Of a stretch of 64,000 nt of DNA, positions 59,365 through 63,020 are shown in pieces; the first letter of the stretch is position 1; every line of letters begins with the position of its first letter. Location of the stretch: positions 62,001 to 126,000 of the forward strand of contig JAERSW010000012.1 of the NCBI GenBank assembly GCA_016845305.1, given 5' to 3'. Both the position numbers and the translations under genes were made by a program. A model generated the notes under the pieces. The model made no database searches. It had not been told where the DNA came from and saw only the letters and a list, made by a program, of their open reading frames with translations. The DNA comes from Acidimicrobiales bacterium (lineage in GTDB: Bacteria > Actinomycetota > Acidimicrobiia > Acidimicrobiales > MedAcidi-G1).

Positions 59365-59374
59365 AGCCTAGGGT
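59365..59374. promoter_or_regulatory. Overlapping divergent -10 elements
   Basis: The 10 bases AGCCTAGGGT hold TAGGCT on the minus strand (for the phosphatase, 6 bases from its ATG) and TAGGGT on the plus strand (for the protease). The two share the central TA. Confidence 0.45.
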
Positions 59375-59408
59375 GGGTCTCGCCGGTGACGAGCAGACGG
59401 GAGGTCCG

Positions 59409-62400
59409 GTGCAGCCACCGACCCGCCTCTCCGTGAGGCCTCCCCGTGAGGGACGCCTCCCCGTGAGGGACGCGGCGCCGGCCGTCCGCCGACTCCGGTT
59501 CGCGCTACTGGTCCTCATGGCGGCGTCGGCCGTCCTCTTCGGTCTGGGCGTCGACCCGGCCCGGGCCGACGTCGTGGGGACCGGGTACGCCGAGGCCGAC
59601 CTGGTGGACCTGCAGTGGGCCACCGACCACCTCGGCTACGACACGCCGGCCGAGCTCCAGAAGGTCGGCGTCGGGGTCGTCGACTTCATCCTGCAGATCT
59701 CCGGACGGACCGAGCCCGAGTGCGACCTCGGCCTGGATGCCCAACTCGATCCCTACGGACCGCACCGCTTCGCCACCACGTGGGCGGGGACCGACCTCGC
59801 CGTGCTGGACCGGGTGGTCGACCACTACTGCGTCAGCCGCGAGCAGGCGCAGTCCTTCGGGGCGACGATCCTGGCCTTCTTCGCCGGCCTGGAGGCCGGT
59901 CGGAACGGGACGGAGGCCGAGCGCCTCCCGCTGGCCGACGTGGTTCCTCCGGCGGGGACGAACTCGCCGGAGGCGTCCGGAAACGGCGATCGGACGGTGC
60001 TCCTGGACGAGCCTCCGCCGGACGACCACCGCGTCGTCGCGTACTCCCACGCCGGAGCCGGGTCGTTCCGGGTGATGGCCCGGGACCTGTCCGGCGAGGA
60101 GGTGGAGGTCGTGGTGGACCGGACGGGCACCGCCTCCGGACGGGTCCTGGTGGACGATCCCGGCTCGATGGCCGCACTGGAGGTGGTGGCCGACGGCGAG
60201 TGGACGCTGTCGTTCGCGCCCATCGCGTCACGGCCCGACGTCGGTGTCGACGGCTTCACGTTGGCGACCGGCGACGACGTACTGCTCGTCCCGACGGACC
60301 TCCGGGGGCAGGCCCTGCGCTACCGGAACGTGGGACCGGGGACCATGGTGGCCCGGGTCCGCGGCTTCGACGGTGGCACCCCCGTGGAGGTGGCCGCGGC
60401 CGGGGGTGGCCGGGTGAGCCGACTCCGCCTTCCCACCGGCGCCCGGATCCTCGAGGTGGAAGCGACGGGCGAGTGGGGCCTGGTCGACGGGGACCTCCTG
60501 CCCCCCGGTCGTCCTCTCGACCTGGAGATCGAGGCCCGGGACGCCGCGGTGGACGTCTCGTGGACCGCCCCGGTCAGCGGCGGCTCGCCCATCACGGGCT
60601 TTCGGGTCGAGCACCTCGAGGTCTCGGCGGGGGGCGGGGATGCCGCGTGGACCCCGACCGAGGTGGCGGGCTCGGTCCGGGGGGTGACGGTCGACGGGCT
60701 GCGGAACGGCGTGGCCCACCGCTTCCGGGTCCGGGCGGTCAACGCGGTCGGCTCGGGCCTCTGGTCGACGGTCGCCTCGGCGGCGCCCATGGCCGCCGTC
60801 GAGGTGGTCGAGGCCGACGGCCTGGCCGCCACCGCCGGAGATCGGCTCGTCCACCTCTCCTGGAGCGGCACGGACGACGCGGCGTCGTACTCCCTCGTCT
60901 ACTTCGACGAGACCAGGGTGCTGTCGGGCACCGCGGTCATCCGGGGTGCCACGGCGGGGCGTCGTCCGATGTCCGTGCCCCCGTCGGTGTGGGCGCTGCG
61001 ATCGGCCCACCGGCTGGCGGGCGTCCGCCTGCCCACCATCGTGGGCGGCGACAAGGTCCCGGCCGGCGACCGGACCCACGTGGTCGCCCTGCTGGGGGTC
61101 GGCCAGCCCGACGCCTTCCAGGCCCACTACTGCGGGGGCACGCTGATCGCCCCCCGTTGGGTGCTGACCGCCGCCCACTGCATCGCCGACAAGGCGATCG
61201 ACGAGGTCGAGGTGGTGGCCGGCGTGGCCGACCTCGACGAGGTGGTGGCCGACGACCGGATGGGGGTGGTGGCCCTCCACGTCCACGAGGCGTACGACGC
61301 CGACCGGATCCTGCACGACGTCGGCCTGGTGGAGTTGGCCGCCGATGTCGAAGGCACCCCGATCCCCTGGCAGGAGGACGGCGACCTCCCGGTGGCCGGA
61401 ACCTCGGTCGAGGTGTCGGGCTGGGGCGCGGTGACGGCCGACAGCGAGCAGTACGAGACGACCCTGAAGGCGTCGACCGGACGGGTCCTGGGCGGGCCGG
61501 GCGAGGACTACTGCGGAAGCTGGCGGGGCTTCCGCTCCGGCGACGAACTCTGCGTCGGGGGACCGGCCGGCGTCGGGGCCTGCGGCGGGGACAGCGGCGG
61601 ACCGGTCACCGCGGACCTGGGGATGCTGCGGGTGGTCGGCGTGACGTCCTACGGGCTGTCCGGGGCCTGTGCCGATCCCACGTATCCGAACGTGGCCAGC
61701 CGGGTGAGCGGCCATGCGGACTGGATCGAGGCTCGGGTGGGCGACCCGTGGCGGACCGTGGAGGACCTCGCCGGGTCGAGCCACACGGTGGACGGGCTGG
61801 TGAACGGACGGACGTACACGTTCCACGTCACGCCGGTCGATGCCATGGGACGGAGCCTGGGGCCGATGCAGGTCACCGTGTCCCCGGTGGGGCCGCCGGC
61901 CGCCCCGACGAGCCTGCAGGGTCGGGGCGGCAACGGGGTGGCCGTCCTGTCGTGGGAGGCGGCGTACTCGGCGGCCGACGATCCGGTGGTCGACCACGTG
62001 GTCCAGTACTCGGCCGACGGGGTCACGTGGACGACCGTCGACGACGGGACGACCACCGGGGCCGGTCTGACGGTGACCGGCCTGGCCAACGAGTCGACCC
62101 TCGACTTTCGGGTGATGGCGGTCAACGGACGAGGAACGGGGCCGGCCTCGGCACCGGTCACGGTGGTGATCGGCCAGCCGGACGCGCCCACCGGCCTGGT
62201 GGTGGTCACCGGCGACGGCACGGTGCGGCTCTCCTGGGCGGCGCCGACCGACGACGGGGGATCCCCGGTCCTCGGCTACGTGGTGGAGCGTCGGGTGGAC
62301 GGCGGGTGGGTCGTCGTGGTCGACGAGACGTCGACGGACCCGGCGACGCTGGTCACCGGCCTTCCCAACGGCGCCAGCGAGGACTTCCGGGTCGCCGCGG

Positions 62401-63020
62401 TCACCGCCGTGGGCCGGGGCCCGACCGGGGAGGTGGTGACCGCGGTGGTCGGCCGCCCCGATCCGGTCACCGGCCTGACGGCCGTCGTCGGGGACGGGGA
62501 GGTGGCCCTCACGTGGACGCCGACGGCCCACGACGGCGGCTCGCCGGTGGTCGACCACCGGATCGAGTACTCGACCGAGGACGGGTCGACCTGGGATCGG
62601 GTCGAGGGAGAGGTCGGGACGGCTACCGGGACGACCGTGTACGGGCTCCGGAACGGGACGGCGTACCGCTTCCGGGTGGCGGTGGTGACGGCCATCGGCA
62701 CCAGCAGGGCCCGCTCGGTGGGGGCCACCCCGGCCACGGTGCCCGGACGGGCGACCGGTCTGATGGTGGTCGGGGAAGAGTCGAGCCTGGTGTTCAGTTG
62801 GCAGCGACCATCGGACGGCGGGTCGCCGATCACCCTGGTCCGGGTCGACCTGGCGCAGGCCGGGATCGACGGGTGGCAGTCGTTCGAGGCGGGGTCGGCG
62901 ACCACCACGGCCCGCATCGGAGGCCTGGTGTCGGGCGAGGAGTACCTGGTCCGGGTCACCTACGTGAACGCGCGCGGTGACGGCGAGCCGTCCGACGTGC
63001 TGCGGGTGCTGGTCCGATGA
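59409..63020 (+). CDS. Secreted chymotrypsin-like (S1) serine protease with fibronectin type III domains
   Basis: The GTG at 59409 has GGAGGT 4 bases upstream; GTG 59373 and GTG 59463 are alternatives. The signal peptide ends near A-R-A. An unrecognised N-terminal domain (residues about 45-360) leads to an FnIII domain (about 366-464). A second FnIII domain starts near 471 but is interrupted by an S1 protease domain (about 544-775) and resumes near 783. Four more FnIII domains follow, to the end at 1203. The protease has the I-V-G-G start at 544, His590 (T-A-A-H-C), Asp637 and Ser729 (C-G-G-D-S-G-G-P). The residue at the trypsin specificity position is Gly, not Asp, so cleavage after Lys/Arg is unlikely. 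Activation probably needs cutting before I-V-G-G. Confidence 0.9.
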   Translation: MQPPTRLSVRPPREGRLPVRDAAPAVRRLRFALLVLMAASAVLFGLGVDPARADVVGTGYAEADLVDLQWATDHLGYDTPAELQKVGVGVVDFILQISGRTEPECDLGLDAQLDPYGPHRFATTWAGTDLAVLDRVVDHYCVSREQAQSFGATILAFFAGLEAGRNGTEAERLPLADVVPPAGTNSPEASGNGDRTVLLDEPPPDDHRVVAYSHAGAGSFRVMARDLSGEEVEVVVDRTGTASGRVLVDDPGSMAALEVVADGEWTLSFAPIASRPDVGVDGFTLATGDDVLLVPTDLRGQALRYRNVGPGTMVARVRGFDGGTPVEVAAAGGGRVSRLRLPTGARILEVEATGEWGLVDGDLLPPGRPLDLEIEARDAAVDVSWTAPVSGGSPITGFRVEHLEVSAGGGDAAWTPTEVAGSVRGVTVDGLRNGVAHRFRVRAVNAVGSGLWSTVASAAPMAAVEVVEADGLAATAGDRLVHLSWSGTDDAASYSLVYFDETRVLSGTAVIRGATAGRRPMSVPPSVWALRSAHRLAGVRLPTIVGGDKVPAGDRTHVVALLGVGQPDAFQAHYCGGTLIAPRWVLTAAHCIADKAIDEVEVVAGVADLDEVVADDRMGVVALHVHEAYDADRILHDVGLVELAADVEGTPIPWQEDGDLPVAGTSVEVSGWGAVTADSEQYETTLKASTGRVLGGPGEDYCGSWRGFRSGDELCVGGPAGVGACGGDSGGPVTADLGMLRVVGVTSYGLSGACADPTYPNVASRVSGHADWIEARVGDPWRTVEDLAGSSHTVDGLVNGRTYTFHVTPVDAMGRSLGPMQVTVSPVGPPAAPTSLQGRGGNGVAVLSWEAAYSAADDPVVDHVVQYSADGVTWTTVDDGTTTGAGLTVTGLANESTLDFRVMAVNGRGTGPASAPVTVVIGQPDAPTGLVVVTGDGTVRLSWAAPTDDGGSPVLGYVVERRVDGGWVVVVDETSTDPATLVTGLPNGASEDFRVAAVTAVGRGPTGEVVTAVVGRPDPVTGLTAVVGDGEVALTWTPTAHDGGSPVVDHRIEYSTEDGSTWDRVEGEVGTATGTTVYGLRNGTAYRFRVAVVTAIGTSRARSVGATPATVPGRATGLMVVGEESSLVFSWQRPSDGGSPITLVRVDLAQAGIDGWQSFEAGSATTTARIGGLVSGEEYLVRVTYVNARGDGEPSDVLRVLVR

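Follow-up and report, generated by a model that had tools for sequence, protein, structure and literature searches.

The window, a 64,000-nucleotide stretch of an Acidimicrobiales genome (2.9 Mb in 136 contigs), contains an open reading frame at positions 59373 to 63020 (+) whose translation is a multidomain protein of 1,215 amino acids. The listed start is a GTG codon, and the true start may lie further in; orthologs are of comparable length. Across the region, the nearest relatives are an Acidimicrobiaceae bacterium (87% identical), a Candidatus Microthrix sp. (73%), and an Acidimicrobiales bacterium (58%). All features given here lie on the plus strand. A putative signal peptide was read by eye at residues 38 to 65 (VRRLRFALLVLMAASAVLFGLGVDPARA, 59484 to 59567). 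Residues 65 to 375 (59565 to 60500) are conserved and comprise a helical stretch with conserved cysteines followed by beta-rich repeats, and no Pfam match over the cutoff was found for them. An intact fibronectin type III (FnIII) domain follows at residues 379 to 472 (60507 to 60788; positions 1 to 94 of our own FnIII HMM, E = 1.2e−28, and Pfam fn3). Four more intact FnIII domains fill residues 841 to 1214 (61893 to 63014; four full-length matches to the same HMM), and the last of them forms the C terminus of the protein (...GEPSDVLRVLVR). Between these lies an S1 protease (IVGG...DWIE, residues 556 to 786, 61038 to 61730) with unusual flanks. A Pfam scan of the protein returned five fn3 stretches and a single Trypsin domain at residues 556 to 785, and our HMM returned five full matches plus an N-terminal and a C-terminal fragment on the two sides of the protease.

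These two fragments are complementary parts of one domain. The HMM has 95 positions and was built from 65 intact FnIII domains of the window protein and its orthologs, with the split domain excluded. The upstream flank (ADGLAATAGDRLVHLSW...YSLVYF, residues 481 to 516, 60813 to 60920) matches it from position 1 or 5 to about 44, weakly in the window protein (E = 0.03) and with E values down to 4e−9 in orthologs. The downstream flank (GDPWRTVEDLAGSSHTVDGLVNGRTYTFHVTPVD..., residues 790 to 838, 61740 to 61886) matches positions 43 to 94 (E = 4.7e−10 in the window protein, down to 4e−12 in orthologs), and the two flanks jointly cover one FnIII profile (Pfam family PF00041) once and with no overlap. 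Pfam fn3, which has 84 positions, gave the same picture in relatives: the flanks fall at 2 to 43 (E = 4.3e−6, which passes the cutoff) and 45 to 81 in L138 and at 3 to 40 and 37 to 76 in L248, the upstream flank of L074 covers 1 to 40, and the downstream flank of L073 covers 50 to 80. The break falls in the turn between C and C′ (the CD loop), which places strands A, B, and C in the first half and strands C′, E, F, and G in the second. The original prediction had located the protease between two parts of one FnIII domain that resemble the intact neighbors, and it named as one refuting outcome a pair of flanks that are each a full domain. The motifs it cited lie where it placed them, both flanks are recognized by an HMM made from intact domains alone (the upstream one weakly in the window protein), and each flank covers about half of the profile, which speaks against that outcome. 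Only its boundary for the second half needs correction: this half begins earlier than the quoted motif, at the C′ strand (PWRTVEDL).

The catalytic domain matches peptidase family S1 (Pfam PF00089) over profile positions 1 to 220 of 220 (E = 3.6e−37). The triad residues His602, Asp649, and Ser741 are invariant in the alignment, and pocket residue 189 is Gly. An AlphaFold model of a 375-residue segment was computed from 28 sequences, an alignment to which 25 trypsin-like sequences from viral contigs had been added and from which most orthologs were left out (mean pLDDT 74.7, pTM 0.77). The added rows cover the protease only, and therefore FnIII pairing was not fed into the model. The protease core is mostly at pLDDT 80 to 96 with weaker loops, and the predicted protease superposes on Saccharopolyspora erythraea trypsin with a Z score of 30.5 and a root mean square deviation of 2.1 over 218 residues. 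Strands B and C of the first half and C′, E, F, and G of the second are predicted with moderate confidence (pLDDT about 75 for C, 84 to 86 for C′ and E, about 80 for F, and about 62 for G); confidence is low for strand A and for the linker that precedes the protease. Trypsins took up the Foldseek and VIA-align lists, which are thus uninformative on the FnIII part.

A search of other genomes for the same insertion, which had been proposed as a check, found the nested module in 37 genomes from four families of a single order, the Acidimicrobiales. In the window's family it occurs in 20 of 48 genomes, with one nested protease in 13, two in 6, and one case known only from a cut contig. It was also found in 4 of 20 genomes of family f27, in 12 of 51 of f35, and in 1 of 39 of f59, the last assigned by its junction and position because its FnIII match is weak. 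The passage from the C-terminal helix of the protease to strand C′ is fixed, with a constant spacing of nine residues between Trp784 and Trp793. In draws of 395 genomes from the class and 396 from the phylum, full-length matches to a profile of this junction were confined to the order; the matches include some members of the profile itself, and most of those in f27 and f35 are not members. The readable partial matches outside the order (L260, L261, and L263) are not nested, and neither is L259, a protease encoded on a Rhizobium plasmid. An assembly artifact is ruled out, since the identical arrangement recurs in many independent genomes. The original observation is correct and belongs to a conserved module. 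As a separate observation, the L259 gene (Rhizobium sp. WSM1274, plasmid pWSM1274_2) encodes a trypsin-like protease and lies between genes for a caspase-family protein and a serpin, an unusual cluster of protease and inhibitor genes.

The module occurs in several architectures. The minimal form, L248 (616 amino acids), consists of a signal peptide, a split FnIII domain with its trypsin, and SLH-like repeats. It has no other FnIII domain, and therefore its flanks cannot be pieces of neighboring domains. Profile complementarity, conservation in four families, and this minimal relative together strongly support a protease inserted into an FnIII domain whose halves belong together. The chains of f27 and of most f35 proteins add a subtilase (S8), a P-domain, and FG-GAP or SLH repeats. 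Twelve proteins (L080 to L082, L245 to L247, L249, and L254 to L258) combine subtilase, P-domain, FnIII domains, nested trypsin, and FG-GAP or SLH repeats in one chain, so that a single secreted protein comprises two serine proteases of different clans. In three fully read genomes (L077 to L079), a PD40-type beta-propeller and a trypsin sit together inside one FnIII domain; in L077 (4081 to 7623, +), the halves around them lie at residues 178 to 212, a weak match, and 760 to 811. Because the propeller and trypsin share one loop, the FnIII C-C′ loop seems to have taken up whole domains repeatedly. The same three proteins house a second protease in a second FnIII domain. In this second copy, the catalytic Ser is replaced by Gly in 6 of 6 genomes of the genus that carry the gene, and also in L076. 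The second nested copies of L020 to L025 and L076 to L079 (seven genomes) read GDGGGP and keep the catalytic His and Asp, which makes them a conserved pseudoprotease nested in FnIII.

The history of the insertion was approached with a tree that combined 30 nested S1 domains with 60 others. In the free tree, the nested domains form two groups, which suggests two or three independent gains of nesting. An approximately unbiased (AU) test found a tree with all nested domains together to be better (log-likelihood +12.9, p-AU = 0.79), and this constrained tree and the shared junction fit one ancient insertion.

The protease is preceded by a linker (residues 517 to 555, 60921 to 61037) that is rich in indels, has low model confidence, and ends in the proposed activation site LPT/IVGG, with the cut before Ile. 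In S1 zymogens, an Ile-Val-Gly-Gly start and a GDxGG motif are the two sides of the Ile16-Asp194 switch, and an IVGG-type start and GDxGG are retained in all nested copies read. Window-type proteins, with a G189 pocket, mostly have Pro at P2 and have Thr, Asn, Ser, Met, Leu, or Ala at P1. Such Pro-small or Pro-Met sites are of the kind that an elastase-like enzyme would cut, and the best structural matches include proteinase 3 and neutrophil protease 4. The D189 (trypsin-type) proteins with a subtilase in cis (n = 12) have Asp, Glu, Gln, or His at P1, residues after which trypsin does not cut. The single D189 protein lacking a subtilase, L248, has Arg at P1; its genome also encodes the subtilase-bearing L247. 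L251 and L252 (Gln; L252 ends at a contig end) and L079 (His) depart from this pattern, as no self-cutter is evident for them. The P1 residue is otherwise in step with the likely cutter, and this match to the available protease, drawn from few independent lineages, is suggestive of real cleavage.

An S1 zymogen needs a free N terminus to become active, and therefore an internal zymogen should, once activated, leave its protein in two pieces. A split host domain that keeps its fold would be a way around this that needs no disulfide. We propose that cleavage occurs immediately N-terminal to Ile556 (Ile16 by chymotrypsin numbering) and that the freed N terminus would form the Ile16-Asp194 salt bridge and turn on the protease. 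In the window's lineage, the cutter is probably the protease itself or a sister copy; where relatives carry a subtilase within the chain, it is probably that subtilase. The cut, inside the FnIII loop, would yield two fragments, and these would be kept together because the A-B-C half and the C′-E-F-G half remain one folded beta-sandwich. The enzyme would thereby become active while staying attached to the modules on both sides of it, with the FnIII domain acting as a noncovalent stand-in for the propeptide disulfide of animal S1 zymogens. On balance, we favor this reading, in which the secreted 1,215-residue protein carries an S1 zymogen in the CD loop of an FnIII domain and would become an active, noncovalent two-chain product held by the split domain.

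The cysteine content of the modules bears on this proposal. The propeptide cysteine that marks disulfide-tethered two-chain S1 zymogens was found in none of the 37 modules; in all of them, the 75 residues that precede Ile16 are free of cysteine. The catalytic domains have exactly six cysteines each, at positions that correspond to the usual internal bonds. Without a cysteine before Ile16, the upstream part cannot be tethered by a disulfide. The original prediction had suggested that either the protease or FnIII pairing holds the halves; as a cut before Ile16 would detach the upstream half, the protease could not hold it, and FnIII pairing would be the only link left. Strand C of the FnIII fold has C′ and F as its pairing partners, and both of these lie in the opposite half of the split domain. 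When a monobody of the human fibronectin type is divided in its CD loop, the two peptides reassemble, and a split at this loop is reported as the most efficient for monobody complementation (Dutta et al. 2005, as cited in PMC11666773). The physics of such a clamp is thus established for an engineered human FnIII domain in the laboratory, and by analogy it may operate in the window protein.

A reading in which the flanks are FnIII-like by coincidence or are decaying remnants, and do not fold as a unit, is very improbable. The first half of the window protein is, on its own, a weak profile match (E = 0.03), which speaks for this reading, yet the break is identical in four families, and L248 has the flank pair with no other FnIII domain. 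The dN/dS ratios of the halves (0.12 to 0.32) are near those of intact FnIII domains (0.09 to 0.38), as rough values in which synonymous sites approach saturation and for which some comparisons gave no value. Across 12 orthologs, the second half has 0 gap columns and the first half at most 3. In the window's family, the linker from strand C to Ile16 is less constrained than the halves, with dN/dS of 0.29 to 0.50 and 7 to 13 gap columns in most orthologs. We reject flank decay on this conservation of the halves.

A rather unlikely reading, though one to be taken more seriously, is that the nesting is real and serves only to display the protease at the surface, on the FnIII tandem, or to position it. 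The enzyme would then either act as one chain or be freed by a cut, and pairing of the halves after a cut would be irrelevant. The fixed C-terminal junction is what positioning would require, and proteolysis at the linker is itself deduced from sequence. The catalytically dead Ser-to-Gly copies are nested alike, and so the nest cannot be about activation only. However, IVGG-type starts are kept and P1 follows the likely protease, features that would be needless in an enzyme that is never cut, and a discarded upstream half would need no constraint, yet it is constrained. It is still less probable that FnIII pairing provides quality or zymogen control, with the sandwich restraining the protease N terminus until a cut or binding event, as in the original suggestion that activity is tied to FnIII integrity. 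One small domain does hold both ends of the protease, and the C-terminal junction is rigidly conserved, but the N-side linker is long, variable, and modeled with low confidence, which speaks against a tight hold on the N terminus. For the window's genus and g5, its sister, linker length is about 40 to 56 residues, and in f27 and f35 it is 13 to 28.

The module is a new architectural variant of S1 zymogens and not a new kind of enzyme. No prior description of a protease nested in FnIII was found in the open-access papers searched, which is weak evidence of absence. In modular animal S1 zymogens, the protease is C terminal and a disulfide between propeptide and catalytic domain retains the upstream part. 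Plasma kallikrein, factor XI, TMPRSS2, and enteropeptidase share with the window protein the catalytic fold, the Ile16-type start, and a protease joined to other modules, but the window protease is nested in FnIII and lacks the tethering cysteine. In VesB and VesC of Vibrio, a whole beta-sandwich comes after the protease. These are likewise bacterial secreted S1 proteases beside a beta-sandwich and were among the solved relatives found (PDB 4lk4 and 6bqm); in the window protein, in contrast, one domain surrounds the protease. A GlyGly-CTERM tail (a Gly/Ser-rich motif, a hydrophobic stretch, and a basic end) was sought by eye in the window protein and is absent. Split monobodies are cut in the loop that carries the window protease, and their halves re-form a working domain noncovalently (PMC11666773), but they are laboratory-made and hold no inserted enzyme, whereas the window module is natural and holds a protease. 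If the clamp reading is true, the module would show in nature what laboratory split-FnIII complementation achieves, and it would offer a ready-made design for activatable enzymes that stay tethered. More tentatively, the FnIII CD loop may be a natural carrier site for zymogens, with the split domain as a noncovalent clamp that keeps the activated protein whole and, in relatives, an in-chain subtilase completing a self-contained two-protease cascade, still assembled at the cell surface once the cut is made. In those relatives, the pairing of activating protease and cleavage site is directly testable.

Secreted actinobacterial trypsins close in the protease tree (L163, L164, and L166) also have S1 and FnIII in one chain; unlike in the window module, their FnIII domains are whole, come after the protease, and are not nested around it. 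Many viral contigs that are apparently marine (L171, L172, and similar ones) encode secreted trypsin-like proteases with Pro-Met followed by an IVGG-type start, which resembles the activation site of the window's relatives.
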